Part shown: positions 43,230 to 64,000 of the stretch, piece after piece
How the letters are laid out: the number at the start of each line of letters is the position of its first letter
Numbering within the stretch: the stretch's first letter is position 1
Position numbers and translations under genes: made by a program
The notes under the pieces: model-generated
Seen by the model: only the letters and a program-made list of their open reading frames with translations
Told to the model about the DNA's origin: nothing
Database searches by the model: none
Assembly (NCBI GenBank): GCA_016124855.1
Contig: WGMX01000020.1
Span: forward strand, 372,001 to 436,000
DNA from: Anaerolineaceae bacterium
GTDB taxonomy: Bacteria > Chloroflexota > Anaerolineae > Aggregatilineales > Phototrophicaceae
Direction of reading: 5' to 3'
DNA length: 64,000 nt

Positions 43230-44585
43230 ATGTTGAACCCTGTTTTTAAACGAAACACGACGGTATCCATGCTGATGCTTTGCGTTATCGTCACACTTTT
43301 GTTTGGTTTGTCGCGGCCTGTAGCGGCACGACCTTTCGCCGCACAAACAACCCCGGCTAAACCACAATCGGGCTACATTCTGGTATCGGTATTATTTTCA
43401 AACGAAACTTATCTTCTGAATGAAGACCAGCAGGTTGTCCATACATGGAAGCTTGCTCATCCGTCTGCCGGTTCTGCCTATCTTTTGGATAATGGCGACC
43501 TGCTGCAAACCGGAGCGATAGACGAGTCGGATACGTTTCCTGATGCGGTTCATACCGGCGGCAGCGGATACATCAACCGCTATAGTTGGGATGGCGAACT
43601 ACAATGGGAATATGTCCTGAACAGCAGCACCCAGTTGCAGCACCACGATATCCAACCGATGCCTAATGGAAACGTGATGATTATCGCCTATGAACGCTTC
43701 ATGAAAGATGCAGCGGTTGCCGCAGGCCGTAAGCCTGATTTGTTTCCACCCGACCGCAATGAAATTTGGTCGGAAGCCCTGCTAGAAATTGATCCCTCTA
43801 CCAACAAAACAGTCTGGGAATGGCACGTTTGGGATCATCTGGTTCAAGACCAAAACCCGGAAAAGGCGAATTACGGAAAGCCTGCTGAACATCCTGAATT
43901 GATTGATATCAATTACGGTTATGATTTTCCCAACTATACCGAAAACATCACCACCAATATCGAGTGGCTGCACGCCAATTCCGTAAACTACAACGCGAAG
44001 CTTGATCAGATTCTATTCAGCGCCCGTCAATTCAATGAGGTGTGGATAATTGACCACAGTACTACCTCCGCCGAGTCGGCAGGTCACAGCGGCGGACGTT
44101 ATGGCAAGGGCGGCGATTTGTTGTACCGCTGGGGAAATCCTGCTGCCTATCAATCGGGTGATCCTGTGAACGACCGCATCCTTTATTTTCAACATGATGC
44201 GCGCTGGATACCCGATGGATTTCCGGGTGCCGGGAATTTCACCGTATTCGATGATGGCTCTTATGAAGGACGACCTACTTCGCGCATACTGGAAGTAAAA
44301 ATCAACAATAATGCTGATGGTGGGTACGATTTGTCGCCGGGGAAAATTTCTTCTGCCGATATTGTGTGGAAATATGACATCACCAGCGAGTACTCGTTCA
44401 TTCTGGGCGGCGCACAAAGACAGGCCAATGGCGATACATTAGTGGTAGATGGTTACCACAGCCACGTTCTGGAAGTGACCCCTGACGGGAAAATTATATG
44501 GGATTGGCACGGGCCGGAGCAATCGTACCTCTTCCGTGCGGATCGCTACCCACTGGATTTTCCTGCTTTTGTAGACAATAGCTGA
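43230..44585 (+). CDS. Exported arylsulfotransferase-family protein (ASST type)
   Basis: The 451-residue protein has a signal peptide (about 1-34). The rest is a beta-propeller-like series of strands: GYINRYSWDGELQWEYVL, LQHHDIQPMPNGNVMIIAYE, IWSEALLEIDPSTNKTVWEWHVWDHL, NIEWLHANSVNYN, and FQHDARWIPDG. The repeated H-D/N motifs on inner strands are those of the Arylsulfotran_2 family, in which His residues carry the sulfuryl group from one phenol to another. Secretion fits the periplasmic or extracellular site of known enzymes. The substrates are unknown. It lies alone between two terminators. Confidence 0.85.
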   Translation: MLNPVFKRNTTVSMLMLCVIVTLLFGLSRPVAARPFAAQTTPAKPQSGYILVSVLFSNETYLLNEDQQVVHTWKLAHPSAGSAYLLDNGDLLQTGAIDESDTFPDAVHTGGSGYINRYSWDGELQWEYVLNSSTQLQHHDIQPMPNGNVMIIAYERFMKDAAVAAGRKPDLFPPDRNEIWSEALLEIDPSTNKTVWEWHVWDHLVQDQNPEKANYGKPAEHPELIDINYGYDFPNYTENITTNIEWLHANSVNYNAKLDQILFSARQFNEVWIIDHSTTSAESAGHSGGRYGKGGDLLYRWGNPAAYQSGDPVNDRILYFQHDARWIPDGFPGAGNFTVFDDGSYEGRPTSRILEVKINNNADGGYDLSPGKISSADIVWKYDITSEYSFILGGAQRQANGDTLVVDGYHSHVLEVTPDGKIIWDWHGPEQSYLFRADRYPLDFPAFVDNS

Positions 44586-44855: not shown

Positions 44856-47800
44856 ATGCCAGAACTATCCAATTCTGAAAATCAAAGTAATTTGCTTCAA
44901 CGACAGGCCGCCGCAAGCCACGAACTCACTTCCTGTGTAACCTTTGTTGATATGGTGACGGCCATTGTCGGCAATATGCCGCTGGAAAATGGGCAGTTCG
45001 TCGCCATCAACCACATTACTTACGATCTCAGTAATCAGTTGTTTCGTTTACAAATACTGGCGTGGGCAGATCAAAATCAAGCGTCTGAAAACGGCGCTGC
45101 TCTGGAAATTCCGCTGCCCGGCAGCAAGTATCCCTTAGAAGCCGACGCCGACGACTATCAGTCGGCGCTGCTCATTCATCAGGTACAGGGTAACGAAAAA
45201 CTAAACGCTGCTTACGGCGATTGGTTGGCGGCTGATAACGTGGTTTCTTTCGCCAGTTTCCCTATCCGGTTTGCGGGGCATATCATCGGGACTTTGAGTA
45301 TCAATTCCAGAACATCACCCGTGAACTTGAGCGCGGAAGCTCTAACCCAATATCAACTGCTGGCGAATCAATTAGGAGCGCTTATTCAGGTGAATAATCT
45401 GAATATGGAAGTCGCGTTCCGGCAGGAGTTGATTCAACGCCAATCACGCACGTTTGCTGAATTAACCGCCAGCATGAATTTCGAGCAAATGGCGGCAGCC
45501 GTCGCTAAACATATGCTGCCCATGCGCGGACGTTTCTTGGGCATCAGCCAATTGGTGCGTGACGAACAGGGGAACATTAATGCGTGGCGTATCCTGACGA
45601 GCGCCAACCGCGAACACGTCTATAGCTGGGCTGATACACCCCCCTTGTTATGGGAAGGAATCGCACCTGCGTTGAAAAAGGCGGCGCTGGCAGGTAAACC
45701 CTTCCTTATGCCCTCCATTCGTGATGCGCGACCCGACGAAAACAGCCCTGAACTCCATAACCTGCTGTCTGCAATTCATGTCGAAAGTTATGTCAGCATT
45801 CCGATGCTGGTTGATGAACAACCGGCTGCAGCGCTGCTCATTATGAGCCGTACACCCAACGACTTCACTTCGGACGAGGTTAACGCCTTCGCCAACCTCG
45901 GCGACCAGATGGGTACGCTGATTCACTCGCGTGCCTTGTTAGAAGAAGCTCAGGATACACAAAAGCTGGCGCTGCAACTGGTGCAAACCAACCGTAACAT
46001 CACCTTGACCAACAATATGGATGACATCGGTCAAGCGCTGCTGGCAGCGATGCCCCCGAGTGTGACCGGTTTGACAATTGCCTTATTCAGCCGTCCGATA
46101 CAAGGACGTGACAAACCGAGCAATCTGGAAACGGCGGTACTTGCGGATCATCAAGGAGTCCATGGTTTAGAGCGTATTGATCGTCTTTCAGGCGACACAG
46201 CCAATTTCGTAGATACAGTGCGCTTACTGCAAAACAGTGAAGTAGTGGTGCAATATCCATCGGATAAACAGGTTGTGCTGCCGCCGCAGAGTTTGGCGGC
46301 TTTGTATGCCAGCGGTGCAAATCGCATCACCGTGTTGGGTTTACAAACCGGCACAAAGCTAATCGGTGTGTTGGGGTTAGCCTCTAATGAAGCCTTGGAC
46401 AAAACACCGCAGCAGGGCGCTAATCTCCGCGCCATCGCCGACCAGATTGGTATCACGCTGGAAAATCGCAGCTTACTCGCCCAGACAACCGAAAGTCTGA
46501 ACTTGGTGCAGATGCAGTTTGAGACATCAAACACCATTTACCGCAGCACCAATCCCGGGGAAATCCTCGAAGCCATTTACCGTTTTGCGGGATCAACTTA
46601 TCAACGCGCCCAAATTGCTCTTGCTGAACCGGATAGCGATCCGCCCGTCATGCGCATTGTGGCTGAGATTCAAAACGGTAAATCGGTGTTGACTGATGCC
46701 ATTGTTCCGCTGGATTCGTTTCCGGCACATCAAACGCTCAGATCGTTGGAAACCCTGTACATTCCTGACGTAGCAACGGATACCTATCTCAGCGATAGTG
46801 AACGTGCAAATCTCATCGATCAGCAGATTGACTCGATGCTTATTGTGCCGATGGTGGTCAATGTCAACTTCGTCGGGGCGCTGGCTTTCATCAACCGCGT
46901 TCAATCCGCTCCTACAACCACCAGTATGCGGGCGCTGCGCCACATGGCTGATTTAGCGGCAGTCGTAGTAGAAAACCGGTCACTGCTGCAAATCACCGGG
47001 CAGTCGCTGGAAGAGACTCAGTTGCTTTACGAAATTAACCGTGCGATTTTAGGCGCTCAGGATACGCTCGACGTGCTGCGCGTCATACGTGAACTGCTAA
47101 CGCCGGATGCGGCTGTTATCTCTGAATTGAGTGTGACTTACGACGACTCGTACGAAATTGACGATCTGATGGTCAATTATCTGAATACGCCTGAAAGCGA
47201 ACAGGCCGTTCAGATGCCATTAAAAGATCAAATTGGCAAAGAAGCTCTGGCCAAATTGCGAGACTATTGGGATACGCATTCTTCTGTCGTGACCATTGTT
47301 GAAGACTTGGAAACTTCTGACCGCGATTACCCTATAAGTGATTTCATACGGATGTCGGGTGCGCGGAGCTTCGTCAACATCGTCGTGCGACAGGGCAGCC
47401 GGGTACACCAAGTGATCAACATGTCGTTCCCTGAAGCACGTCAGTTCAGCGCAGCCCAACAGCGGTTGTATGTGTCGCTCAGTGATCAAATCGGCATCGT
47501 CATGCAAAATCATCGCCTGCTGCGTGAGGCACAACAAAGCGCAGGCGAAATGAGCAAACGAGTCGGTCAGTTACAGGGCATTAATCAAGTTTCGGCGCGT
47601 ATCCTTCGTGCCAGCGACGAATCATCTATGGTCAACGAAACCAGCGAAGCGCTCGTCAAGCTGCTCGGCATTAATCACTGCGGCATCACGCTGGTTGATC
47701 CAAAAGACCCCGATTTTCTGTTTGTTGCCGGTGAATACCCGCAGCAGGGCGCGCTAGATGCCCGTTTGCCGCTCAAAAATAACCCGTTATGGGAGGCGCT

Positions 47801-49283
47801 GCAAAAACGGAACTTCCAACCCTTGTATATTTCCAGCCGCGAAGACCAACTCATCGAACCCGCAACCCGACAAATTTTAACGAGTATGGGCGTATACTCT
47901 CTGGGTATCGTTCCGATTGTCGCCAACGGGCGCATCATCGGCGGCGTTGGCCTTGATATGACCTCCCCCACCGGAAAAATTACACCGGAAATGTTGGAAC
48001 TGGCGCAAATTCTGACCGTTCCGCTGAACATCGGTCTGCAAAATCTGCGTCTGCTGCGCAACATCCAGAGCGGCGCTGATCGTTTGAGTGAACAGGTCGA
48101 AACCCTGCGTGACCTCCAACAAATTGAGTCCCATATCAGCAGTGCTCAAGATGAAGCCACCTTGCTCAAGCAGGCGGCACAAGATGTGACTCACTTCCTT
48201 AAAGCTGATCACTGCGGCATTGTGCTGCTAGACCCCAACCAAACAGTCGGCACGGTCGTCAGCGAGTATCCTGAACAAGGGACTGTGGGAACCCAATTCG
48301 CAGTCAAAGGAAATCCGTTGTTCGATTTTCTGCATGGCGACAGCTACCGTCCCGTTGTCATCAATGACGTTGAAACCGATCCAATTCTTGATGAAAGCAA
48401 CCGCGATTTTCTGAGAAAAGTCGGCACGAAAGCGATCATTGTGCTGCCGTTGTTGGTTCATGACCGTGTCATTGGTTCGTTAGGGATTGATTTGTTTACA
48501 GCCGCGCAGTCAATAAGTCCGGAAATGATTGACTTGGCGCAAACCGTATCATCACAGATTGCGATTGCGCTGCAAAACCGTCGTCTGGTGACCGAAGCGC
48601 AGCGCCGTGCTGCGCAGCTTCAGCGTGTCGCGGCCTTCAACCAAAAGGCGCAGGCCTCGTTGGATAGAAGCCAAACACTCGAAATCATGATTGCTGAAGC
48701 CAGCCAGATGCTGTCGCATAACCACATTAGCATCAGTTTGCTGGATAAATCTGACCAGCAGCTTAAAGTCGTAGCCCAGCGCACGGATGATAATTTAGAC
48801 CTGAACACCAATAATGGCGACATCATCCCACTGAACGGACAAATGAAAAATGTTTGGGAAAATGCGCAGCCGTTGTATATCCCTGATTTACGAGCCGTTG
48901 CCCATGAAATGGATGTCGGTGTGACCTTGCGTTCGTGGCTGGTTCTACCGGTTAAAGAACACGGCGCTGTTGTCGGTATCGTTAGTGTGGGTAGTGATCA
49001 GGCTTCAGCCTACAGTCAAACCGATATATTCCTGTTTAGCCAGTTGGTCACCCAATTCGGTGTGGTTATGGAAAATATCGAAACCTACCGCCAGAACCAG
49101 CAGTTAGCACGAAATGAATCCCTTGTAAACGATATTTCAGCCCAACTTCAGCGTCAACTTGATATTCAAGGTATGCTGAATGTAACGGCTGCCGAGCTGG
49201 GCAAAGCCATTGGAGCGCGTCGTGCGCGTATCCGCTTGGCGACCACCATTCCTGAAACCGATTCTCAATCAAGTGCGGAGTAG
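44856..49283 (+). CDS. Soluble multi-GAF protein (eight GAF domains, no output domain)
   Basis: The 1,475-residue protein is a chain of about eight GAF domains of 150-180 residues joined by helices. They begin near residues 18, 195, 375, 550, 725, 910, 1090 and 1250. Most have the two hallmark ends: a start such as LVQTNRNITLTNNMDDIGQALLAA and an end such as DQIGITLENRSLL. There is no signal peptide, membrane helix, kinase, cyclase or phosphatase domain. The protein ends in a truncated GAF start (IRLATT) like the next four gene products. Its stop is 5 nt before the next ATG. It probably acts as an input or scaffold subunit of the kinase encoded downstream. Confidence 0.85.
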   Translation: MPELSNSENQSNLLQRQAAASHELTSCVTFVDMVTAIVGNMPLENGQFVAINHITYDLSNQLFRLQILAWADQNQASENGAALEIPLPGSKYPLEADADDYQSALLIHQVQGNEKLNAAYGDWLAADNVVSFASFPIRFAGHIIGTLSINSRTSPVNLSAEALTQYQLLANQLGALIQVNNLNMEVAFRQELIQRQSRTFAELTASMNFEQMAAAVAKHMLPMRGRFLGISQLVRDEQGNINAWRILTSANREHVYSWADTPPLLWEGIAPALKKAALAGKPFLMPSIRDARPDENSPELHNLLSAIHVESYVSIPMLVDEQPAAALLIMSRTPNDFTSDEVNAFANLGDQMGTLIHSRALLEEAQDTQKLALQLVQTNRNITLTNNMDDIGQALLAAMPPSVTGLTIALFSRPIQGRDKPSNLETAVLADHQGVHGLERIDRLSGDTANFVDTVRLLQNSEVVVQYPSDKQVVLPPQSLAALYASGANRITVLGLQTGTKLIGVLGLASNEALDKTPQQGANLRAIADQIGITLENRSLLAQTTESLNLVQMQFETSNTIYRSTNPGEILEAIYRFAGSTYQRAQIALAEPDSDPPVMRIVAEIQNGKSVLTDAIVPLDSFPAHQTLRSLETLYIPDVATDTYLSDSERANLIDQQIDSMLIVPMVVNVNFVGALAFINRVQSAPTTTSMRALRHMADLAAVVVENRSLLQITGQSLEETQLLYEINRAILGAQDTLDVLRVIRELLTPDAAVISELSVTYDDSYEIDDLMVNYLNTPESEQAVQMPLKDQIGKEALAKLRDYWDTHSSVVTIVEDLETSDRDYPISDFIRMSGARSFVNIVVRQGSRVHQVINMSFPEARQFSAAQQRLYVSLSDQIGIVMQNHRLLREAQQSAGEMSKRVGQLQGINQVSARILRASDESSMVNETSEALVKLLGINHCGITLVDPKDPDFLFVAGEYPQQGALDARLPLKNNPLWEALQKRNFQPLYISSREDQLIEPATRQILTSMGVYSLGIVPIVANGRIIGGVGLDMTSPTGKITPEMLELAQILTVPLNIGLQNLRLLRNIQSGADRLSEQVETLRDLQQIESHISSAQDEATLLKQAAQDVTHFLKADHCGIVLLDPNQTVGTVVSEYPEQGTVGTQFAVKGNPLFDFLHGDSYRPVVINDVETDPILDESNRDFLRKVGTKAIIVLPLLVHDRVIGSLGIDLFTAAQSISPEMIDLAQTVSSQIAIALQNRRLVTEAQRRAAQLQRVAAFNQKAQASLDRSQTLEIMIAEASQMLSHNHISISLLDKSDQQLKVVAQRTDDNLDLNTNNGDIIPLNGQMKNVWENAQPLYIPDLRAVAHEMDVGVTLRSWLVLPVKEHGAVVGIVSVGSDQASAYSQTDIFLFSQLVTQFGVVMENIETYRQNQQLARNESLVNDISAQLQRQLDIQGMLNVTAAELGKAIGARRARIRLATTIPETDSQSSAE

Positions 49284-49288
49284 GGCTT

Positions 49289-50998
49289 ATGCGCCGCTTA
49301 TTAGAGCAGCTGTACGATGTTTCCCGTTATGACAACCTAATCGAAAAAGATCGGGCGCGGTTGGTCTATACCATAGCCTCCGCCTTGATTCTGATTAACC
49401 TGTTTTTCATTGGGTTGATCGTCTTTGCCCCAAGAAATGCAATCCCTGATCCGGCAGTCCCTGCGTCTACCGTCGATACCAATATCTTTCTTGTTGGATT
49501 TACGGTCTTTGTTTTGGGTCTTATCGCTTCGTTCGTCGTAACGCGTCGGGGAAACAGCCGGTTGGGCAGTGTGCTGCTTGTCTCTCTGACAACCTTGATT
49601 TTTGGTGGGCTTGTCATTGTGACTGGAGCCTACAGGAGTCAAGATGGCTTTGCACTTATTATCGCAATTGCTATCCCGGGCTTGCTTTTAGGTGAGCGCG
49701 GTTTACTGGTAGGGATAGGATCCGCTGTCCTAATCTATATCGCAAGTGTGAGTTTGCGATCTGAATCCCGAACAATCAATCTTAGTGCTTCAAATGAAGC
49801 AGCAATCACTGTAACGCTCATATTCATTATAGGATCGCTGATTTACGCTTATTTGCGTTTTGCGCGCGTCAGCCGTATTGAAGGCGCGGCTACCGCCGAA
49901 GCCGAACGTATGAAACTGGCACAGCTTACCAGCCTCATCACCAGTCGTATTTCCCGTCGTTTGGCTCCTAGTGAAGTGCTGCGCAATACGGTCGAGGAAA
50001 TACGCACAAGCTATCCCGACATTTACCATGCTCAAATTTTCCTCACCGAACCCAGCGGTGTCGCGCGCTTAGTCGCCAGCACCGGTGAAGTCGGAAAGAT
50101 GCTGATTGACCGTCAGCACAGTTTGCCAATCGGCAGCCAGAGTGTAATCGGACAAGTGACCCTCAATAACCAAACGGTCATCGCGCGTTCTAATTCCAGT
50201 AACTCGGTGCATAAACGCAACGAATTTTTGCCGGATACAGTCGTCGAAGCCGCTTTCCCGATGCGTATCGGTGATGCCGTAATTGGCGCGCTCGACTTAC
50301 AAAGTAAGAAACACGACACCTTTACCGATGAAGAAATGCCCATTTTTCAGTCGCTGGCGGATAATGTCGCGATTGCGATTGATAATGCGCGCTTATTTGA
50401 AGAAACCGAACGGCGCTTGCAAGAAAATCAACAGCTTGTCGCACAGATGCGCCAATCTAGCGAAGAAGTTAAACGTCTGAACGAACGTTTGACAGGCCGC
50501 TTCTGGAAAGATTTTCTGAACCAGCAAAACGCCTCATCCCTCTTGCTCGATTTGGAGAGCAGCTCGGCAGTCGTTGATAACACATGGACACCGTCTATTC
50601 GTGAAGCCATCACATCTAATCAGTCGATACAGTCCAATTCCACCGATACCAAATTAGTGACGGTTCCATTACGCGTGCGCGGGCAGGTCATCGGCGCGAT
50701 GGAATTTGAAATCGATCAGAACGGTACGGTATCCGCTGATGACATTGCCATGATGGAAGAAGTGAGCGAGCAGTTAGGTCTGGCCGCCGAGTCTAACCGT
50801 TTATACGAAACCAGCCAGCGCATCGCCCAGCGCGAGGCGTTGGTGAATGAAATCTCGACCCGCTTACAGAGTGGCACAAGCGTCGAAATGACCCTGAACA
50901 GTGCCGCACGCAGCCTGAAGGATGTACTGAAAGCCAATCGGGTGGCGATCCGTCTGGGCAAACCACCTGTTGAAACCATGAATGGGGACAACTCATGA
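49289..50998 (+). CDS. Integral-membrane GAF sensor (paralogue 1 of 3), no kinase domain
   Basis: The 569-residue protein has about six N-terminal membrane helices (about 25-190). A helix leads to a GAF domain (about 215-370) with ASTGEVGKMLID, SVIGQVTLNNQ and VHKRNEFLP. A coiled linker with a FWKDFL motif follows, then half of a second GAF (VPLRVRGQVIGAMEFE) and a truncated GAF start ending NRVAIRLG. No catalytic domain is present. The stop overlaps the start of the next gene by 4 nt. The N-terminal helices differ from the Cache-type sensor of the fifth gene, so the protein probably senses within the membrane or through its GAF. Confidence 0.85.
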   Translation: MRRLLEQLYDVSRYDNLIEKDRARLVYTIASALILINLFFIGLIVFAPRNAIPDPAVPASTVDTNIFLVGFTVFVLGLIASFVVTRRGNSRLGSVLLVSLTTLIFGGLVIVTGAYRSQDGFALIIAIAIPGLLLGERGLLVGIGSAVLIYIASVSLRSESRTINLSASNEAAITVTLIFIIGSLIYAYLRFARVSRIEGAATAEAERMKLAQLTSLITSRISRRLAPSEVLRNTVEEIRTSYPDIYHAQIFLTEPSGVARLVASTGEVGKMLIDRQHSLPIGSQSVIGQVTLNNQTVIARSNSSNSVHKRNEFLPDTVVEAAFPMRIGDAVIGALDLQSKKHDTFTDEEMPIFQSLADNVAIAIDNARLFEETERRLQENQQLVAQMRQSSEEVKRLNERLTGRFWKDFLNQQNASSLLLDLESSSAVVDNTWTPSIREAITSNQSIQSNSTDTKLVTVPLRVRGQVIGAMEFEIDQNGTVSADDIAMMEEVSEQLGLAAESNRLYETSQRIAQREALVNEISTRLQSGTSVEMTLNSAARSLKDVLKANRVAIRLGKPPVETMNGDNS

Positions 50999-52623
50999 CA
51001 CCGATTTCTCAGGGTTCTGATCGCGCTCCGGTGCTCGTCAACCGCACTCGTGATCGCTACTTGTATGTATTGATCGTGTTTATTACGTTTGCCAGCATGT
51101 TAGGCGCTGTGTCGATTTCGATCTCATCGGAACCCAATCAGTTTCTTTTAGGATTTACGATAAGCCTCTTCGTCATGAGCGTGATTGCATTAATCGTGTT
51201 GTGGCGCGGCCATATCACACTGGCAATTTACATAGTCATTCTTCAGTCAGTGGTCGGTGTATTCGCTACGAGTCAAATTGACATTTGGTGGATGCTGTTT
51301 GACGCGATACTTGCGGCGATTACGGCATCAGTACTTGCGGAACGTAACTTTTATCGAATTGTGATGACTTTGGTATTAGGAACAATTTTAGCGCTGATTA
51401 TTCATTCCATTCAGATCGACAAGATTGGCAATGGACAACTCGTCCCTTACTTGGTGATCATGCTCTGTGTGACGATTGTCGGTGTGACCACGCGCTATTT
51501 CACTATCCAGTCGAGAAAAGCTGCGGAAGTCGCCGCCAGCAGTGCAAACCTGCTGCAAGCGGCAGCCGCTACCAGCGAAATCATCGGCAAGCTGTTGAAG
51601 CTCGATGAGTTGTTATCACAGGCCATCGAACTTATCCGTGAGCGATTTGCCTTTTATCATGTTCAAATTTTCTTACTCGATGAAGCAGGCGAAAACGCAC
51701 AGCTCGCCGCCAGTACCGGCTCGGTCGGACAGATGTTATTCGAACGTCACCACAGCTTGCCGGTTGGCAGCCGCAGCGTTATCGGACGTGTGACCAGCAG
51801 CGGTCAGCCCGTAACCGCCAATGACACCGACCCTTTTTATCATCGCAACGAACTGCTGCCCAATACCCGTTCGGAACTGGCGCTGCCAATTTTGGACGGT
51901 GACAAAATTATCGGTGCCTTGGATGTACAAAGCCGACGTTACGAAGTCTTTACCACCGAAGTAATTCAAGCGCTGCAAGTGGTGGCAAATCAATTGGGTA
52001 TCACCATTCGTAATGCACGCTTGTTTGAAGAACAAGAGAAAACCACCAATGATGCACGGCGTTTGTTCCTTGAATCAGAAACCAACCTCCGTGAAATCCA
52101 GCGTCTGAATCAGCAGTTAACCCGTTCCGGTTGGCAGGATTATCTTCAGACCGGTAAGCCGGTCAGCGGTGTGACCCTGAATGGCACAGCGATAACCCCT
52201 GCCGCTGAATGGACGGACAGCTTGCGCGCGGCGACCCGCGCTCGTCAGGCCGTTACCACCGAGCGTGAAGGACAGAAGATTATTTCTGTACCAATGGTCT
52301 TGGATAACGAGGTCATCGGCGCGATTGAAGTCGAGGCTACTGGCACAACCCAAGAGTCGGACATTACCGAAATGGTGAATGCGGTTGCCCAGCGTTTGGC
52401 GCTCAGCCTTGATAAAGCCCGCTTATTTGAAGAGTCGCAAGAAGCCACCGCCCGTGAACAGCGCATCAACGAAATTGTCACCCGCTATCAAAGCGTGAAT
52501 AACATTGATGAATTGTTACGCATCACCCTCCTAGAATTGAGCCAGTCATTGGGGGCAACACACAGCAGTATCCGCTTGGGTACAGCACCGGTTGTCAGCC
52601 TGAACGGAGAAGGCCACGCATGA
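50995..52623 (+). CDS. Integral-membrane GAF sensor (paralogue 2 of 3), no kinase domain
   Basis: The 542-residue protein repeats the architecture of the preceding gene product: about six helices (20-175), a GAF (about 195-350) with ASTGSVGQMLFERHH and YHRNELLPNTRSE, a linker with GWQDYL, half a GAF (VPMVLDNEVIGAIEVE) and a truncated GAF start ending SSIRLG. It overlaps both neighbours by 4 nt, so the three genes are translationally coupled. The GAFs are much more alike than the membrane parts, pointing to old duplication with separate evolution of the input half. Confidence 0.85.
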   Translation: MTPISQGSDRAPVLVNRTRDRYLYVLIVFITFASMLGAVSISISSEPNQFLLGFTISLFVMSVIALIVLWRGHITLAIYIVILQSVVGVFATSQIDIWWMLFDAILAAITASVLAERNFYRIVMTLVLGTILALIIHSIQIDKIGNGQLVPYLVIMLCVTIVGVTTRYFTIQSRKAAEVAASSANLLQAAAATSEIIGKLLKLDELLSQAIELIRERFAFYHVQIFLLDEAGENAQLAASTGSVGQMLFERHHSLPVGSRSVIGRVTSSGQPVTANDTDPFYHRNELLPNTRSELALPILDGDKIIGALDVQSRRYEVFTTEVIQALQVVANQLGITIRNARLFEEQEKTTNDARRLFLESETNLREIQRLNQQLTRSGWQDYLQTGKPVSGVTLNGTAITPAAEWTDSLRAATRARQAVTTEREGQKIISVPMVLDNEVIGAIEVEATGTTQESDITEMVNAVAQRLALSLDKARLFEESQEATAREQRINEIVTRYQSVNNIDELLRITLLELSQSLGATHSSIRLGTAPVVSLNGEGHA

Positions 52624-54311
52624 ATAGGTTTAACCGCTTTCGCCAACAGCTTTTTGGTGTGCGCCATTTGTATAGCAATCCGCTGGATGCTCAACGCGCA
52701 CAGGTTTTGACTGTACTCACGGTAGTCATTGCTGTTGTACTGGTGATGACCTTTGCTTTCTTTCAAATCCCTGAAATTTTGCGAAACGGCCCGACTGATC
52801 CGGTCAATACATTGATATCGGTGGCGGATCTGGTGGCCTTGGTCTTCGCCTACCGCCAAATTCAGCGTGGCAAACTGAACCTCGCCATTTGGATTGTCGT
52901 TGGATTGGTCATCATCGGCGCGGTGCAAAGCATCTTGCGCGGCGGGCCGAATAGTACAGCCACCATCAGTAACAGTACGGTCGTCTTACTGCCAGTACCC
53001 ATTGTTTTAGCTGGAACGCTCTTATCTCGTCGGGGTATGTTTGGGGTTTCCGCTCTGACATTTTTGTTGGTTATCATCGCGGCGGTTGCCCAATCCGCCA
53101 ATGGCACACCCTTTACCTATATACCTGCTGAAGTGGCTGTTGCCGATGTGGTGACCATTATCCTGACGCTGCTGGTGACGGTCGCTATTCTGGGTGCATT
53201 TCTCGGCTCGCTCCAACGCATAGCCAATGAGTCGTACCAGTTGACCGCTCTGCGCCAGTGGATTAACCAACTGGGCTCAGACCTCAGCGCAATTCATGAC
53301 GAGACAACCTTACTAAACACGGCCATTACCCGCATCCGGCAGGTCGTTGTTCAGCGCTTCGTTGAAATTTATATCATCAATGAGGATGGGAATCTGGTCT
53401 TGCCGTCTGGTGGCACTCAGCGCCGTAAAATTATTCGCTCGATTGAACCTAACATTTTGGCGGAAGCCGCACGCACACGTACTGTGTTAGTCACATCCTT
53501 GGAAGATGCGCCGGAGCGCCATACGCATATGGCGGCATCCACCAGCTATGCGGCAGCCGTACCGATCATGGTGAATGACAACCTGATGGGAGTACTCGAT
53601 TTTCAGGATGTGCAGCAGTTTTCAGCCAACGAACTGGAAAGCCTGCAAGAACTGGCTGGTTTACTGGCGCTGAACTGGCAGCGTGTACGGGTTACGACCG
53701 ATCTGCAATCGCGGGTTGATGACCAAGAACTAACCATCACCCGTCTGCAAACCCAGCTTCAGGACTTTAGCCGCCGTCAGCAGCAAGATGTCAGCGAAAT
53801 TTGGGGCGGCTATATTCAAGGGCGCGGTAAGCAGGCCATTGGTTATAACCTGAGCGGCGATTCGGCGGTTCCGGTACAAGCCAGTGATCTTCCCGGCGAT
53901 TTGGTGAATACCCTGAAGACCGGACAGCTTGAAGTTTCGACGCAGGGCAACGAGCAGGTCGTTAATGTCCCCATTAAGTTCCGTGATACCAACTTGGGCG
54001 CGATGTCTTTCGCTGTGCCTGCGGATCAGCCGTTGAATGACCGGCAGATCGAAGTCGCGACGATCGTGGCTGAACGTCTGGCGCTGGCTCTGGAAAACAC
54101 GCGCTTATTCGAGCAAAGCCAGTCACAGGCGTTTCGTGAACGCAAGGCGAGTGAAGTCGCGACAGCGCTCATCGGTGCGACTGATGTACGGGTAGTCTTG
54201 AATATGGCAGCCGAACAATTTAAGGAAGCGTTAGGCGCAGTGAATACACGGATTTATATCCAACCGGAAACCATGATGGAACCGCTAGCCCAAACGCAGC
54301 AGGAGCAGTAG
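52620..54311 (+). CDS. Integral-membrane GAF sensor (paralogue 3 of 3), diverged, no kinase domain
   Basis: The 563-residue protein has the same plan: about six helices (30-200), one GAF (about 220-365), a linker with IWGGYI, half a GAF (VPIKFRDTNLGAMSF) and a truncated GAF start ending TRIYIQ. Its GAF has lost the ASTGE motif and the HxRNELLP motif that its siblings and the giant kinase share, so its ligand or role has probably changed. GGAGAAGG precedes the ATG. The stop is 2 nt before the next start. Confidence 0.85.
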   Translation: MNRFNRFRQQLFGVRHLYSNPLDAQRAQVLTVLTVVIAVVLVMTFAFFQIPEILRNGPTDPVNTLISVADLVALVFAYRQIQRGKLNLAIWIVVGLVIIGAVQSILRGGPNSTATISNSTVVLLPVPIVLAGTLLSRRGMFGVSALTFLLVIIAAVAQSANGTPFTYIPAEVAVADVVTIILTLLVTVAILGAFLGSLQRIANESYQLTALRQWINQLGSDLSAIHDETTLLNTAITRIRQVVVQRFVEIYIINEDGNLVLPSGGTQRRKIIRSIEPNILAEAARTRTVLVTSLEDAPERHTHMAASTSYAAAVPIMVNDNLMGVLDFQDVQQFSANELESLQELAGLLALNWQRVRVTTDLQSRVDDQELTITRLQTQLQDFSRRQQQDVSEIWGGYIQGRGKQAIGYNLSGDSAVPVQASDLPGDLVNTLKTGQLEVSTQGNEQVVNVPIKFRDTNLGAMSFAVPADQPLNDRQIEVATIVAERLALALENTRLFEQSQSQAFRERKASEVATALIGATDVRVVLNMAAEQFKEALGAVNTRIYIQPETMMEPLAQTQQEQ

Positions 54312-54313
54312 CG

Positions 54314-56548
54314 ATGGCAATTCTCTCTCGTGTCTTAAATGTCACCCGCTGGCCGTTGTGGGTAAAAATTTCGCTAGGGCTGGTCGTCGCGGTAATCATT
54401 CCGCTCATCATTGGTGGCTTCATTATTCAAAGTGGCTTTGTGTCTTACAGCCTGAATACCGAAAAAGACATACTCGATCAAGCGGGCAAGCAGCAGCTTA
54501 AGGACCTCACAGCCGTCTTACAGAAGGCGGAATCAAACCTGACCACACTTGCGACAAGCGAAGAACTGAGTTCGCAATTTATACAATCGCTTGAATCAAC
54601 CGGTGTGAATTTCCAAGACGCGCGCGGAATATCACTAGATATGCAGCGTGAATTACTGCAAATTGGTAATTTTCAAGCCATACAACTGGTCAATCTCAAG
54701 GGCCTGATCGTTGCGCAGGCCACAACCAAGCAGTTGTTGACGAAGCGTGGTTTTGATTCACAGTCCGCCGCCTTTATTGCGGCCCAGAACGGCGCACAGA
54801 GCAGCATTATTAAAACCGTCTCGGTTTCTAATGATCCTAATCTGCTGATTGAGTACACATACGCCATAAGCAATGAAGAAAACCAGATTATCGGTTATCT
54901 TGTGGCAACGCTTGATAATGCTGTCGTGCTCCAATATCTCGATGTGGGCGAAAATATTGATAGTTACCTTGTCACAGCCGGACAAAACCCGCTCGTGATT
55001 AAGCGTCAAGGGGTGGTCAAGGGCAGCACTTTAGCCGACTCGGTAGCGGTCAAGCGCGCTTTTACCGGGCAAACTGCGACCACCACTTATGTTGCCGGTT
55101 CACTGCAAAACAATGTCGAGATTTTGGGAAGCTATGGCTCGATTGCAAATCCGGCTGCGACCAACCAGACTTTGTTTGCGCTCGTAAGCGAACTTCCCAC
55201 CAGTGCCATACCCAATCCAGTCTTGGAATATCTGGGCGGATCGCGCCTGTTCGTCGCCGGTGTGGGCTTGGTGATTGTGATATTTCTGTTAGCCGTGTTG
55301 GGAAATCAGATGATTACGCCGCCCATTAATAATCTCCGTCAGGCCATGCAAGCGGTGGTCGATGGTGATTTTAATCATGACGTTGTCACTGGAGATCGTT
55401 ATGACGAGATTGGTCAGCTTAATGCCACCTTCATTGACATGCGGGCGCATGTTCGCGGCTTAATTGATGAACTTGAAGGCCGCATCGCTTCTCGTACCCG
55501 TGACATCAGCGCTACACAGGAAGTCGGTCGTTTCGCGGCGTCGCAGCGCAATCTGCAAACCTTGATGGAACAGATCGTGGAACTCATTACCGAGAAATTC
55601 CCCGATATTTATCATGCCCAAATCTTCTTGCTGGATGCCGACCGTGAATATGCCGTGCTGCGTGCCAGTACCGGTGAACCCGGCAAAATCATGTTGGCTC
55701 GCGGTCACAAATTGATGGTAGGCAGTGTTAGCGTCATCGGGCAGGTGACCGGACAGGGAGAATTTGTCGTTGCCCGTGACACCGGAACCAGCCAAGTCCA
55801 CCAGCGCAATGAACTGCTGCCGCTGACCCGCGCTGAACTGGCCATTCCGCTAAAAGTCGGTGATGTGACCATCGGCGCACTCGACGTTCAAAGCCGCGTT
55901 CGGGATGCATTCGGTAAAGATGAAATCACCATTCTGCAAACGATGGCTGATCAAGTTGCCGTCGCCATCGAAAACGCCCGCTTGTATCAAGACTCGGTGC
56001 GTCGCTTGGAAGAAATCGAGCGCATTAACCGTAATTCTACCCTCAAAGCGTGGCAGGAATACCTAAATGCACAGCGTGAACGTGAGCTTTCCAGTGAGGC
56101 AGGTATCATCAGCGGGACTGATTTGTCGGCCATTCGTAAACAGGCCGTTCAGCAAAACCGCATCGTCGTGGGCGCGGTCACTGCTAACCAGACGGTTCCG
56201 ATTGCTGTGCCGGTACAGTTACGCGGACAAATCTTAGGTGCGGTCGAGTGGGAAATTCCCGCGGCGGATCTGAGCGAAAACAAACTTCAACTCGCGCAAG
56301 AACTGGCGAACCGTTTGGCCACCAGTTTGGATAACGCCCGCCTGTTTCAGGAAAGCCAGCGCGCCGCTGAACGTGAACGCGTGGTCAATAATATTGCCGC
56401 CCGCCTCACCCCACAAACCGAAATCGGCGACATTTTGCAAACGGCTGTGCGCGAAGTCGGTCAGGCGCTCCGTTCGCCACAGGTCAGCATCCGCCTGCAC
56501 CGCACCAACGGCAGTGGCAGTAACGGTAATGGAAGCACTCACAACTAA
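54314..56548 (+). CDS. Cache-like/HAMP/GAF transmembrane sensor, no kinase domain
   Basis: The 744-residue protein has a first helix (about 18-40), an extracytoplasmic region (about 41-310) with a dCache-like pattern (KQQLKDLTAVLQKAESNLTTLA at its start), a second helix (about 315-335) and a HAMP domain (TPPINNLRQAMQAVVDGDF). A GAF (about 395-555) follows with ASTGEPGKIM and VHQRNELLPLTRAE. Then come a linker with AWQEYL, half a GAF (VPVQLRGQILGAVEWE) and the truncated GAF start ending VSIRLH. It adds an outside-sensing branch to the cluster. AGGAG precedes the ATG. There is no kinase and no methyl-accepting output. Confidence 0.88.
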   Translation: MAILSRVLNVTRWPLWVKISLGLVVAVIIPLIIGGFIIQSGFVSYSLNTEKDILDQAGKQQLKDLTAVLQKAESNLTTLATSEELSSQFIQSLESTGVNFQDARGISLDMQRELLQIGNFQAIQLVNLKGLIVAQATTKQLLTKRGFDSQSAAFIAAQNGAQSSIIKTVSVSNDPNLLIEYTYAISNEENQIIGYLVATLDNAVVLQYLDVGENIDSYLVTAGQNPLVIKRQGVVKGSTLADSVAVKRAFTGQTATTTYVAGSLQNNVEILGSYGSIANPAATNQTLFALVSELPTSAIPNPVLEYLGGSRLFVAGVGLVIVIFLLAVLGNQMITPPINNLRQAMQAVVDGDFNHDVVTGDRYDEIGQLNATFIDMRAHVRGLIDELEGRIASRTRDISATQEVGRFAASQRNLQTLMEQIVELITEKFPDIYHAQIFLLDADREYAVLRASTGEPGKIMLARGHKLMVGSVSVIGQVTGQGEFVVARDTGTSQVHQRNELLPLTRAELAIPLKVGDVTIGALDVQSRVRDAFGKDEITILQTMADQVAVAIENARLYQDSVRRLEEIERINRNSTLKAWQEYLNAQRERELSSEAGIISGTDLSAIRKQAVQQNRIVVGAVTANQTVPIAVPVQLRGQILGAVEWEIPAADLSENKLQLAQELANRLATSLDNARLFQESQRAAERERVVNNIAARLTPQTEIGDILQTAVREVGQALRSPQVSIRLHRTNGSGSNGNGSTHN

Positions 56549-56611
56549 AGTTAACAGTCTAGCAGGATAATTTTATCGTATGCTAGTAGTACTGGGTACA
56601 TAAAACGATCT

Positions 56612-59600: not shown

Positions 59601-62600
59601 TGGAAAATCAGCGTCTGCTGCAAAGAACATCGACCGCACTGGACGAAACACGCCGTTTGTATACAGCCAGCCGTTCTATTTCCAGCGCGCAAGATATCGC
59701 TGCCGTTTATAAAGCAGCCAGTGAGCATCTGGTGCAGTCTGCCGGACAAATCAGCCGCTTGACCGTGCTGTTAGCCGGGCCAAACGCTACTGTAGATGCT
59801 GCCTATTTTGATGTGGCCTATACATGGACAGAAAATCCGCAGCCCGACGCACCAGTATATGACCGGATGCGTGTGCCTGCCGACATGCTGCCAATTGGCA
59901 AACTAATGGCCGTCGCAAAAGACAGCCTCTATTTTGATGATCTGACCACCAATTTGGCGGAGAATAATCCGCTGCGTCAGACCTTCGAAACGTGGGGAGC
60001 GGTAAGCGCGATTGTCATCCCGCTTCAAACCCAGCGCCAATGGTTAGGCGTGGTGGTTGCCGAATCCCAAAGCCCACGTGCTTTCGATGAGCAGTACATC
60101 CGCTTCACCCGCGCGGTGTCCGATCAGGTCGCTATCGCCGTCGAAAACAGAATGCTGTTCGAAGAAGCCCGCAGCGAAGCCCAACGTGCGCTGACGCTGG
60201 CGGAAGTTGGTCAGATGGCGGCTCAAGTCAGCACCGACTTCGAGCAAAACATTAACTTGGTCTTCCAACGCGTAGCTCAAGCCGGCAGTTATGACCGTTG
60301 GCTGCTGCTCCTCGGTAACGAAGTTGACGTCAACAAATTTGATGTCTACAGCAGTCATAATCCGGTGGACGCGGATTTCTTCGCCCAAACCAGCTACGAC
60401 ACTCAGATGAGCCATTCGATCATCGACAGCTACCATACCGAAGAGATGATTGTCATCAACGATCCGCAGCGCTATCCGGCATTCACGGGATGGAAGAGCG
60501 CTTCACTGGAATTACTGGGAAAGCACATGGTTGCGCCGGTTTATTCCAGCGGTGATACCGTCGGCGCGCTGTTGATTGGACGCGGTTTAGAAAGTCCCGA
60601 CTTGGATGCGCGTGATGAACAGCTTATCCGCACCTTAGCGGCACAGATTTCAGTCGCGGTCGATAATCGCCGCTTGTTCCGTGCTGCTGAACAGGAACGC
60701 GAATATCTGCGCTCAATTCTGGAAACCATGCCCACCGGTATTGTGGTGCTTGACCCCGAAACACTTATGCCCATTCAGTCCAACGCGCAGGCTGAAGTAC
60801 TGCTCGGCAAACCGATCAATTTTGCTGTGCCCTTTGACGTTAAAGACTATAACCTCATCCGTACCGGTACCAACGTGCATTATCCCGAAGCCGAACTGCC
60901 CATTAACGTTGCTGCTGTCAGTGGTACAGCATCCTTCGGTGACGATATTGCCGTCGTCCATGATGACTTCCAGAATGATCTGCTGCTGAACGCCGCCCCC
61001 ATTTTTGATGGTCGCGGAAATGTAAATGCTATCGTGGCCGCCTTTCAAGACATTAGCAACCTGCGTGGCCTTGAAAATACCCTTCAGAACAGCTTGCGTG
61101 AACAAATCGCGCTCTATGAAGCCACCCGTTCTCTATCCGAAGCCACCTCTTTGGAAGATGCGCTGGACGCGACGGTTGCGCAGTTGTTCATGCTCGATCC
61201 GATGGACGGTTATATCGTACTGCTGGAAGAGAACACCGGTGCGCTCCTGCCTGTTCGTGGTGTCCTGTCTCCAGAACAATTCAATCTCTCTCAAGACCTC
61301 TTCCGTTCTGATGTCCTGATGATTACCGATTTGCATAATCAAACCGAAATCAGCGAGGAGCAGCAGCAAGAATTACTGAACGTGGGGGCGGAAGCTATAG
61401 CCGTCGTGCCCATGCGTACCCGTGACATCTTGCAGGGTTGGATTGCGGTTCTCTATAACCGCGTGCTCGACTTTAGCAACGACAACGAACGCTTCCTGAC
61501 GACCCTTGCTGATAACGCCGCCGTCGCCATTGATAACCGTAACCTTCAGCTCCGTACCGAAACCGCTTTCGACGAAGCCACCATTCTGTACGAAACCAGC
61601 CGTAGCTTGGCGAACGTGTCATCGCCGCAGCAAATTGTTGATGCGGTTGTCACCAAGCTGCGGTTGACCAGTGCCAATCAGGTATTCATGGCCATTCCGG
61701 CTACCGAAACCAACAGCGAAGATTTGGTCGTCATCGCCAACTGGCAGGCTGATGGACAAAGTGGTATTAACCTGCTCGGCGTGACCCTCAATCCCGATCA
61801 ATTCCCGGCATGGCGACAGGTTTCAACCAACTCGCTGTTGACCATCGACGATATTTTCCAAGAACCTGACCTCAGCGAACTTGAACAAATGGGTCTGGAA
61901 AGTACTGATGCCCGCGCTTTGGCTGTCATTCCGCTGCGTGCCGGTAATCGCCGACTCGGTGTCATCTGGATCGCTTCGTCGCAGCCGCACAAACACACCG
62001 AACGTGACCGTCGTATTTATCAATCCTTTGCGGAACAGGCTTCGCTCTCAATGGAAGCCACCCGTCTGCTGGAACAAACCGACCGTCGTGCGCGTCAGTT
62101 GTCTATTTCGGCACAGGTTAGCCAGATCGCCAACTCCATCTTGGATTTGAACGTGCTCATGCCGCGTTTGGTGGATTTAATCCGTGATGCCTTCCATTAT
62201 GATCATGTCCAGATTTTCTTGATGGACAATAAAGATCAGTTTGCGGAACTCCGCGCCAGCACCGGTGAACCCGGTCGGCAGCTTCTCGCCATCAATCACC
62301 GTTTGGCGAAAGGCTCGAAGTCGGTTATCGGTCAGGTGACGACCACCGGACAGCCCGTCATCGCCTTGGATACGGCTGATGCGCACGTCGTCCATCGTCC
62401 GAACCCGTATCTGCCGTTAACACGTTCTGAAATGGCGCTCCCCATCATCGTCAAGGGCAAGATTGCCGGTGCGTTGGACGTGCAGTCCAATACACCCAAC
62501 GCCTTCGGTGATGACGACGTGAATGTATTGACGACCCTTGCCAACCAGATTTCAGTTGCGCTGGATAACGCGCGGCTGTTCGAACAAGCGGAAACCCGTG

Positions 62601-64000
62601 CGCGCGAAATGGGCTTCCTCTTCAACGTAACCGCGACCGCTTCCTCAGGCGCTGACAAGACGCTGAACGAGTCGTTGGCAGATGTTGTGTCGCTGGTGCG
62701 TGAATCGCTGAATGCCTTGAACGTCAGCCTCTATTTGTCCGAAAGTTATACCGACCAGTACGGCGAATCCTATACCTTACTGCGCGCGGCGGCTTTGGCT
62801 GGTTCTGACCAACCCCTTTCTGAAGTGTCGGAAATCTTGGTCGGCAGCTCTGAAAATGCGCTGAGTCAAGTCGCTGTCGAGGGCGAGCCCCGTATTTTCA
62901 ACAATCTGGACGATGAACCGAACTACCTGCCGATTTCAACCGATGCCAAAGCGGCTATTGCTGTGCCCATGATTTCCGGTTATCAAACCATCGGCATCAT
63001 CGCCTTGGAAGATCGTCGCGCCAACAGCTACACGGCGGAAACACTCAACCTGATGGGCGCATTGACCAACAGTCTCTCCAGTATTATTCAGAACACACGG
63101 CTGCTGGAACAAGTGCAGCGCTCCAACGAACAGCTTCGTGAACTTGACCGCCTCAAGAGCGACTTTTTGGCGAACATGAGCCATGAACTGCGAACACCGT
63201 TGAACTCCATCATCGGTTTCAGCCGCGTCATCCTCAAAGGTATCGACGGCCCGCTAACTGAAATGCAGGAGCAAGACCTCAGCACCATCTATAACAGCGG
63301 TACACACTTGCTCGGCCTCATCAACGACATTCTCGACCAAGCCAAAATCAACTCCGGTAAGATGGATATTCATCCTGACTACTTTGACATGAAGGCGGTA
63401 GTCGAAGGCGTGCGCTCAATTGGTATCGGCCTCATTAAAGACAAGTCAGTCGATATGCGCTTGGAAATTGCGTCTGGTTTGCCCAAAGCCTTTGGCGACG
63501 AATTCCGTACCCGGCAGGTGCTGCTCAACCTTGTATCTAACGCCTCCAAGTTCACACAGCAGGGTTCGATTATCGTCCGTGTTTATCTGGATAAGCACGC
63601 TGAAACTGGCAAAGACATGATGCGTGTCGATGTTCAAGACAGCGGTATCGGTATCGCTGAAAAGGACATCCCGCTGCTGTTCGAAGCCTTCCGTCAGGTT
63701 GACTCGTCTCTAACGCGTACCGTCGGCGGTACCGGTCTGGGTCTGCCGATTGCCAAGAACCTCATCGAGATGCAGGGCGGTCAAATGCTTGTGCATTCGG
63801 TGGTGAATGCCGGTTCGACCTTTAGCATCACGCTGCCGCTTGGCCCGGCCTCTGATGAAGCAGAGGATGACTCCGGCACGCCGTCTGAAACCGTTTCTCA
63901 GAACGGAAATAATGGAAACGGCACCAACAAACCTGCCGACAAACGTGCTACGTCCGTCATGAGTGCGGTCATGTCACCATCAACCCCCAAGAGTTTGAAT
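56612..64000 (+). CDS. Giant transmembrane multi-GAF histidine kinase (3' end beyond window)
   Basis: One frame stays open for 2,463 codons to the window edge. The ATG at 56612 or 56624 is the start; neither has a clear ribosome site. Residues about 28-46 and 315-340 are membrane helices around a dCache-like outer region, then HAMP. About ten GAF domains and one PAS (starting SILETMPTGIVVLDPETL, near residue 1370) follow. HisKA begins near residue 2180 with His2191 in MSHELRTP, then HATPase with NLVSNASKFT, DSGIGI and GTGLGL. A Ser/Asn/Gly-rich linker ends the window, and a receiver could follow. It is the only kinase in the six-gene cluster and lies 63 nt after it. It shares the linker W motif (SAWTET) and the ASTGE GAF with the kinase-less sensors. 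Confidence 0.92.
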   Translation, partial: MVNNMARKKDPLNRSRSLHQQMMRRIAPIVIVGFIVMTAIAVLLHRSNLEIQLKSDLKQTLDERSALVDQFFTKLENDLNYLARVDVARRLAAYSVDPSTSPVGGITWETSLATDMVDVANENPNFYNQLNFVTVKGSVWVQVINKGGLLSTIFPSDNKDFAKDANFNSIKSNQITISSIVYGTSADNKPTAVITAYAPIVEKAQNNKLVGVIAVKVNADASLIQPILTAGAQDNHDFLLVNRNGLLINNGQALKDSNPTLSKLLAENPGNIELSVLGSNTIASRIVSNHGIPDMPWTLILLDQGNAAILYGEGLGGIAAIIVIGAIACVLALWLINRILNQWLEPLSATRTLAYNLAAGQMEDTLPPLANSDELGQLTDSFKHISRRMSDLSQELELNVLTTQEHLNLVTELTRESNNLQSADELLELATERVCEAFKMYHGQAYLLDDIGLNAYLSYSRGIVGKRLVEQGIPVQVGSASPVGEAAASGKPVIVSDTLNPGRVPYMANPVLPDTRAEIAVPLMAGEQVIGVIDLHSNNPRLFDDAEITVLQLICNQIGAVLQKLRQMSAYENRIEQEDSLNRRLTRSAWTETEERYALSDSYQYNLIDVVPTAMMDDNIEALSAPITIRGEVIGTLAAAAPEGMPFTVGDHAVLRAVADRVGLAIEGARLFQETQSSLAITSVLYQLSRLLNQATELTEVVKAVITAVTSDAASGQIWLFEENTNQTESGWLQLAADWYVDEQVVRTGGEFQLNINDSSFLGSLSDMQVKVISDATRDTRLDSELKGTLRLLDARAAIFIPFSVRGQWRGILSLLFTDAREFSESDGRIYTALIDQAGVAIDNRLLIRQTEMTLNQNERLYVASSQINTAQTPVELISAVQAATPEISLRFELGLLEGQLDNTGWPTLVRIVARAEGVTAQAADSLQALVVDANSPLRKREALSVEMLGGHTLIFPMFSANQPIAMLYVTSPRTYTISEEDTEIYKALAGQISTVLENQRLLQRTSTALDETRRLYTASRSISSAQDIAAVYKAASEHLVQSAGQISRLTVLLAGPNATVDAAYFDVAYTWTENPQPDAPVYDRMRVPADMLPIGKLMAVAKDSLYFDDLTTNLAENNPLRQTFETWGAVSAIVIPLQTQRQWLGVVVAESQSPRAFDEQYIRFTRAVSDQVAIAVENRMLFEEARSEAQRALTLAEVGQMAAQVSTDFEQNINLVFQRVAQAGSYDRWLLLLGNEVDVNKFDVYSSHNPVDADFFAQTSYDTQMSHSIIDSYHTEEMIVINDPQRYPAFTGWKSASLELLGKHMVAPVYSSGDTVGALLIGRGLESPDLDARDEQLIRTLAAQISVAVDNRRLFRAAEQEREYLRSILETMPTGIVVLDPETLMPIQSNAQAEVLLGKPINFAVPFDVKDYNLIRTGTNVHYPEAELPINVAAVSGTASFGDDIAVVHDDFQNDLLLNAAPIFDGRGNVNAIVAAFQDISNLRGLENTLQNSLREQIALYEATRSLSEATSLEDALDATVAQLFMLDPMDGYIVLLEENTGALLPVRGVLSPEQFNLSQDLFRSDVLMITDLHNQTEISEEQQQELLNVGAEAIAVVPMRTRDILQGWIAVLYNRVLDFSNDNERFLTTLADNAAVAIDNRNLQLRTETAFDEATILYETSRSLANVSSPQQIVDAVVTKLRLTSANQVFMAIPATETNSEDLVVIANWQADGQSGINLLGVTLNPDQFPAWRQVSTNSLLTIDDIFQEPDLSELEQMGLESTDARALAVIPLRAGNRRLGVIWIASSQPHKHTERDRRIYQSFAEQASLSMEATRLLEQTDRRARQLSISAQVSQIANSILDLNVLMPRLVDLIRDAFHYDHVQIFLMDNKDQFAELRASTGEPGRQLLAINHRLAKGSKSVIGQVTTTGQPVIALDTADAHVVHRPNPYLPLTRSEMALPIIVKGKIAGALDVQSNTPNAFGDDDVNVLTTLANQISVALDNARLFEQAETRAREMGFLFNVTATASSGADKTLNESLADVVSLVRESLNALNVSLYLSESYTDQYGESYTLLRAAALAGSDQPLSEVSEILVGSSENALSQVAVEGEPRIFNNLDDEPNYLPISTDAKAAIAVPMISGYQTIGIIALEDRRANSYTAETLNLMGALTNSLSSIIQNTRLLEQVQRSNEQLRELDRLKSDFLANMSHELRTPLNSIIGFSRVILKGIDGPLTEMQEQDLSTIYNSGTHLLGLINDILDQAKINSGKMDIHPDYFDMKAVVEGVRSIGIGLIKDKSVDMRLEIASGLPKAFGDEFRTRQVLLNLVSNASKFTQQGSIIVRVYLDKHAETGKDMMRVDVQDSGIGIAEKDIPLLFEAFRQVDSSLTRTVGGTGLGLPIAKNLIEMQGGQMLVHSVVNAGSTFSITLPLGPASDEAEDDSGTPSETVSQNGNNGNGTNKPADKRATSVMSAVMSPSTPKSLN

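Follow-up and report, generated by a model that had tools for sequence, protein, structure and literature searches.

A recurrent row of kinase-less GAF proteins with a shared truncated GAF end beside one hybrid histidine kinase: a candidate many-input sensory system in Chloroflexota

The locus described here raises the question of how five consecutive GAF proteins that carry no kinase of their own would pass on what they sense. They are encoded in a 64,000-nucleotide stretch of Chloroflexota DNA (the window, meaning the whole stretch analysed), where genes t1 to t5 precede a single GAF hybrid histidine kinase, and a sequence-only reading had suggested that the five proteins pair with this kinase so that many inputs converge upon it. 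The main clue to an answer, absent from that reading, is a truncated GAF domain, hereafter the stub, which all five proteins share at their ends.

The gene row and its recurrence

The analysis of positions and junctions (Table 1) confirms that five consecutive kinase-less GAF genes are followed by one GAF kinase, with spacings from t1 through t5 to the kinase of 5, -4, -4, 2 and 63 nt. Solely GAF-type models, together with HAMP in t5, exceed the Pfam cut-offs in t1 to t5; no kinase, cyclase, phosphatase or MCP model does so, and the curated NCBIfam models all stay below their cut-offs. The description of the five as GAF-rich stands in that each contains GAF, but t2 to t5 are not long chains, each having one full GAF, one small GAF and the stub. 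The input halves that had been assigned were upheld for the six membrane helices of t3, favoured by hydropathy and by the AlphaFold model, and for the HAMP domain of t5; the dCache match in t5 falls below the Pfam cut-off, and its model shows a cache-like extracytoplasmic part flanked by two helices (all structure models are single-chain AlphaFold models). By Pfam, the kinase comprises about ten GAF matches, HisKA with its H-box, HATPase_c and two receivers, and in the window's genus it also has its own dCache-like sensor region between two transmembrane (TM) helices.

The cluster proved larger than first described, as two stand-alone receivers lie upstream of the receptors and a threonine synthase-receiver gene (ThrC-REC) lies downstream, outside the window. 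An arylsulfotransferase-like (ASST) gene at 43230-44585 separates the small receivers from t1 and was seen in none of the other genus loci that show two receivers and the first receptor. Given this gene and a gap of 200 nt between kinase and ThrC, a single transcript is not proven in the window. A further GAF-containing ORF is located at 12804-14339 (GAF match at contig C57 385206-385559).

Table 1. Features of the cluster, in window coordinates unless a contig or locus is named
Feature	Coordinates	Strand	Supporting detail
Stand-alone receiver (REC), 124 aa	42190..42564	+	Pfam Response_reg 1e-27
Second stand-alone receiver, 149 aa	42564..43013	+	Pfam Response_reg 1.2e-18
t1, soluble multi-GAF protein, 1475 aa, C-terminal GAF stub	44856..49283	+	
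Stub region of t1	49071..49280	+	
t2, 6TM-GAF-small GAF-stub, 569 aa	49289..50998	+	
Stub region of t2	50786..50995	+	
t3 (P0003), 6TM-GAF-small GAF-stub, 542 aa	50995..52623	+	AlphaFold pLDDT 91, pTM 0.70
Stub region of t3	52411..52620	+	Helices 454-500 and 504-519 (AlphaFold), no strand assigned after
t4, membrane-GAF-small GAF-stub, 563 aa, GAF most divergent	52620..54311	+	
Stub region of t4	54099..54308	+	
t5 (P0005), dCache-like-HAMP-GAF-small GAF-stub, 744 aa	54314..56548	+	AlphaFold pLDDT 87, pTM 0.46
Stub region of t5	56318..56545	+	Helices 655-698 and 704-718 (AlphaFold)
GAF hybrid histidine kinase, 2738 aa	56612..64828, past window end at 64000 (contig C57 428612-436828)	+	
Kinase GAF9, residues 1839-1991	62126..62584	+	Most conserved kinase GAF, best match of the GAFs of t1 (last), t2, t3 and t5
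Threonine synthase-receiver gene, 3' of kinase, outside window	contig C57 437029-438720; L001 12030-13721		

The gene row is more than a chance arrangement. Conservation of gene order, which the sequence-only reading had put forward as a check, was borne out in 15/15 same-genus genomes searched, with the row interrupted by contig ends in G002, G003, G004 and G013; in 11 of these 15 genomes the five receptors and the kinase start share one contig (the first receptor being cut in G009 and G010), and the cluster also occurs in many other genomes of the class. Binning contamination was considered as the origin of the cluster, the assembly having 9% contamination, and was rejected on the presence of the row in every same-genus genome searched. 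In a midpoint-rooted tree of 98 receptor modules, t1 to t5 mostly group, at uneven support, with the receptors at matching positions in other families of the order. The tree also shows several copies of t5 in G019 and G020, and separate expansions in loci from outside the order. The number of receptors per kin locus ranges from 0 (G018, G025) to 10 (G020).

Junction medians were -4 nt between receptors (n = 360), 16.5 nt between receptor and kinase (n = 64) and 18 nt between kinase and ThrC (n = 77), where a GAF frame running off the locus end was scored as kinase and 13 named loci judged to duplicate genome contigs were left out (these are kept in the following tally). Receptors lying far from any kinase, which had been named as evidence against a common array, are not clearly seen among the 73 named loci: the last receptor is followed by the kinase, or by a GAF frame mostly cut by the locus end, in 54 (in 14 of them after a ParA gene), and the remainder consists of 5 runs that reach the locus end, 13 loci classed as "other", which by eye look like contig ends or ORF-caller failures, and 1 locus without a receptor. 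In 32 of the 41 regions where the stretch ahead of the first receptor is visible, small REC genes lie no more than four genes upstream of that receptor.

Three loci labelled Bacteroidetes, Pleurocapsa minor and Phycisphaerae (L004, L033 and L049, respectively) hold the same kind of receptor and are probably mislabelled or mixed assemblies, and locus L237, from a genome placed outside the class (G279), presents stub receptors, a GAF kinase and ThrC-REC in a row. A literature search limited to titles and the starts of abstracts, with few subscription papers covered, returned no description of this system.

A shared truncated GAF end

All of t1 to t5 terminate in an identical type of truncated GAF, made up of a long helix, a short helix and first-strand sequence, followed by a short variable end. 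Across all loci, and with counts de-duplicated by sequence, 447/456 kinase-less GAF proteins that are complete and distinct carry the stub at their end, and the median tail beyond it is 13 residues. Broken down by set, it was found in 104/105 proteins of the kin loci, 102/104 of the ThrC-anchored loci and 305/311 of the named loci; since the stub model was built from the kin loci, and the named loci are biased for the stub because they were retrieved by a pattern at its start, only the ThrC-anchored count, from a set not found via the stub, represents a fair test. Of the nine misses, two resemble the stub by eye and one is unclear; the others appear to stem from N runs, frame errors or false ORFs. 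Errors of ORF calling or a frameshift were considered as the source of the stub and rejected, given that in the window the next gene opens its own membrane segment and that the same end recurs in hundreds of proteins.

The stub is at or near the conservation maximum in each receptor, with 66-85% identity. Among 12 genus genomes (66 pairs), its mean identity is 73, 72, 70 and 85% in t2, t3, t4 and t5, respectively, and in t1 it is 66% in the genus; the input regions of the receptors reach 26-30% in the same 66 pairs, the full GAF domains of t2, t3, t4 and t5 reach 68, 57, 33 and 72%, and the residues beyond the stub reach 27-45% (12 genus genomes). Windows slightly more conserved than the stub number three in t2 and one in t4. 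The simpler account that GAF starts are always well conserved was set aside, as control segments agree with it only partly: the stub-equivalent segment in the receptors' own GAF has 31-69% identity, and the kinase GAF starts have 44-72%, the start of GAF9 being at 72%.

When the window's own genome was searched with an 11-row stub alignment, the five own stubs scored 88-105 bits and other GAF starts at most 32 bits; the high scores are partly built in because the alignment contains those five, and the result to be taken from it is the wide margin over every other match in the genome. A fold search retrieved general GAF structures alone (PDE GAF tandems and phytochromes). These features bear on the view that the stub is a functionless relic of receptors cut from larger multi-GAF kinases. 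Receptor architecture appears to resemble the N-terminal part of the kinase, as if cut inside GAF3, yet the stub's identity across the genus and its presence in nearly all of the 456 proteins argue against a relic, as does the divergence of the residues beyond it, and we regard this view as highly improbable.

The kinase, its ParA-type neighbours and the threonine synthase-receiver fusion

Within the kinase, GAF9 is 76% identical in the genus, compared with 41-58% for the other kinase GAFs, and is the best kinase match for the GAFs of t1 (its last), t2, t3 and t5, the GAF of t4 being the exception. Because it is both the most conserved kinase GAF and the best match of these four receptor GAFs, GAF9 is proposed as a pairing site, next to GAF10 and HisKA.

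A second view of the kinase is offered by one locus type in which the last receptor and the kinase are separated by a gene for a ParA-like ATPase, with a match to Pfam AAA_31 and an NCBIfam ParA score under the cut-off. By tblastn, this gene is present in 30 loci, a few of which are the same contig twice, and was not found in the window's cluster or in kin loci L105-L146. The ParA-type loci are mostly labelled Anaerolineales or Anaerolineae and include the isolate Levilinea saccharolytica (L038). No hydropathy peak of at least 1.9 was present in the kinases of the 17 ParA loci with complete kinases or in 4 more added by tblastn, while a looser cut-off of 1.6 gave weak internal peaks (1.61-1.89) in 8/17; all 82 complete receptors of those 17 loci have at least one hydropathy peak at 1.6. 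The suggestion that many inputs feed one kinase is backed in part, by membrane receptors beside a kinase lacking a strong membrane helix and by the common conserved stub. Kinases of the window's genus, with a dCache-like sensor of their own and two TM helices, could also receive input other than that of the receptors.

The same observations weigh on the possibility that the kinase-less proteins work by themselves, as homodimeric sensors or as ligand sinks, and share only their expression with the kinase, which they would not contact. GAF proteins commonly homodimerise, and the sensor-like region of the window's kinase would also suit such an arrangement; the lack of any output domain above cut-off in t1 to t5, a common stub better conserved than the inputs, an order that recurs across families and, in ParA-type loci, membrane receptors next to a kinase lacking strong TM helices all speak against it, and we consider it unlikely.

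At the N-terminus of ParA-locus kinases is a basic peptide, K..RL..LF, after which most have a stretch rich in Pro and Ala. The basic N-terminal motif is present in 21/21 distinct ParA-locus kinases versus 1/44 others, that one being a look-alike inside the protein; these 65 kinases are complete ORFs with ThrC within two genes, ParA having been assigned by tblastn, and the count was repeated after exceptions had prompted a single widening of the motif (to R or K, within the first 200 residues). As the ParA loci are related by descent, the 21 cases are not 21 independent events. Three papers report that partners of ParA/MinD work via a positively charged N-terminus (PMC10241942, PMC12462528, PMC7993993), and by analogy the kinase N-terminal peptide may act like those of ParA-activating proteins. 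A ParA-type ATPase beside a candidate cargo protein with a basic N-terminus, as in ParA/MinD positioning systems, is found in the ParA-type loci only. In two loci, an S-adenosyl methyltransferase-like gene, not ParA, separates the receptors from the kinase (L207 13261-14064 and L210 11757-12560, in the orientation used for the analysis), assigned from Methyltransf_19 in L207 and from a shared motif only in L210.

ThrC-REC, encoded downstream of the kinase, scores 180.5 bits with TIGR00260 against a cut-off of 167.1 and has a C-terminal receiver (Response_reg); its best-scoring model, NF006050, gives 275.9, under the cut-off of 303. The SFKDR motif, whose lysine presumably binds PLP, and the zinc-ribbon cysteines are invariant in 10/10 aligned ThrC-REC proteins, as are the receiver phosphoacceptor D494 and K546. 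Three other strong threonine-synthase-like matches in the genome do not extend into a receiver. ThrC-REC was found in 81/249 genomes of the class (E 1e-110) and, in a phylum sample, in 23/201 genomes, 6 of them outside the class. Within the genus, ThrC-REC comes after the kinase in G000 and in ten of its relatives but was not seen adjoining the array in G010, G014 or G015; it was not seen there in G021 either.

A ThrC-anchored set of 60 regions was taken from 105 matches listed, mostly the best-scoring, excluding loci that had been retrieved before and some that lie at contig edges, and L192, L203 and L204 were dropped from it because the ORF caller kept no ThrC gene. A GAF kinase lies immediately upstream in 42 of the 57 regions parsed, 30 of these 42 having at least one stub receptor as well and 12 having none. 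The other 15 comprise some short contigs, one region with a kinase one gene further and six from family f18, in which no ThrC-REC region of this set showed a GAF kinase. L241, L242, L244, L245 and L246 encode a longer variant (707-812 aa) that matches threonine synthase and has two receiver matches, and a GAF kinase is immediately upstream in 4/5 of them; L243 encodes a 646-aa form behind a kinase without a GAF match. A small REC-HisKA-HATPase protein also occurs (423 aa at L143 15044-16315, and similar).

This neighbourhood raises the possibility that the receptors signal via another partner recruited by the stub, whether the small receivers, the ParA-like ATPase or kinases encoded elsewhere. 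The frequent upstream receivers and the position of ParA directly between receptors and kinase would fit such a scheme, as would the kinase-match gene without GAF that comes after ThrC-REC in 31 junctions. No ParA gene was detected in the kin loci, however, and it is the GAF kinase that forms the common neighbour across families and whose GAF9 resembles the receptors' GAF, which makes signalling through another partner quite unlikely in our estimation.

A proposed many-input system and its relation to known systems

Considering the receptors without an output domain, the ParA-locus kinases without a strong membrane helix and the one conserved element together, the most economical interpretation has the receptors acting on the kinase via the stub. 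We judge it reasonably probable that the cluster is a sensory system in which many inputs reach one kinase, with the receptors acting through this shared kinase and the stub as the coupling piece. Receptors would pair among themselves and with the kinase via their GAF, helix and stub modules, with GAF9 near HisKA as the candidate favoured site, and each input would shift the activity of the common kinase. Phosphate would then pass to the kinase's own receivers, to the small receivers and to the receiver on threonine synthase, the latter two steps being proposed on the basis of established two-component chemistry, and phosphorylation might either change threonine synthase or let the enzyme report. 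Where ParA is present, the complex would probably be a positioned cluster. We infer both the physical contact between receptors and kinase and the role of the enzyme.

Such a system, if true, would allow inputs to be added or swapped without extra kinases and would account for the rows of kinase-less GAF genes in Chloroflexota. It would also tie a phosphorelay directly to an amino-acid biosynthetic enzyme, and it would supply three predictions: the stub as interaction element, GAF9 as docking site and the kinase N-terminal peptide as ParA activator.

The layout resembles that of a chemoreceptor array or a stressosome, without the defining domains of either in t1 to t5 and the kinase. With chemoreceptor arrays (MCP-CheW-CheA) it shares a set of membrane receptors whose inputs vary and whose cytosolic part is conserved, a single kinase and stand-alone receivers, and in ParA loci only also the lack of a strong TM helix in that kinase and a ParA-like ATPase; ParC/PpfA position chemoreceptor arrays, according to PMC10241942. 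Unlike those arrays, the cluster has a HisKA hybrid kinase and a proposed GAF-based coupling. No MCP signalling domain was matched by Pfam up to E 0.1 in t1 to t5 and the kinase or, among relatives, in two receptors scanned; Pfam likewise gave no CheA or CheW domain in t1 to t5 and the kinase, and CheW was not matched in two single-contig genomes with a ParA-type operon (G052, G235). In the window's own genome, CheW occurs solely on contig C50.

As in the stressosome (RsbR paralogues, RsbS and RsbT), where paralogous sensors with variable inputs feed one switch kinase, sensors here differ in their inputs; the cluster departs from it in having membrane receptors, a HisKA-type histidine kinase and receivers, and STAS had no Pfam match in t1 to t5 and the kinase. 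The cluster's kinase is itself one of the multi-GAF hybrid histidine kinases, with HisKA, HATPase_c and two receivers, and differs from them in being accompanied by 0-10 kinase-less truncated-GAF receptors across the kin loci. ParA/MinD activators such as PomX, ParB and TlpT share the short positively charged N-terminus, and the Ala/Pro-rich, likely unstructured stretch of PomX, as PMC7993993 describes it, has its likeness here as well, whereas the candidate peptide in this case would sit on a histidine kinase. ThrC-REC resembles threonine synthase (TIGR00260) in passing the curated cut-off and keeping SFKDR and the zinc-ribbon cysteines, and differs from it by the C-terminal receiver. A more far-reaching reading, which we hold to be somewhat less likely than not, would be a third architectural kind of bacterial sensory array beside chemoreceptor arrays and stressosomes, one in which interchangeable kinase-less receptors would couple to one hybrid kinase through truncated GAFs, would in some lineages become ParA cargo via the kinase N-terminal peptide and would directly control threonine synthase through phosphorylation of its fused receiver.
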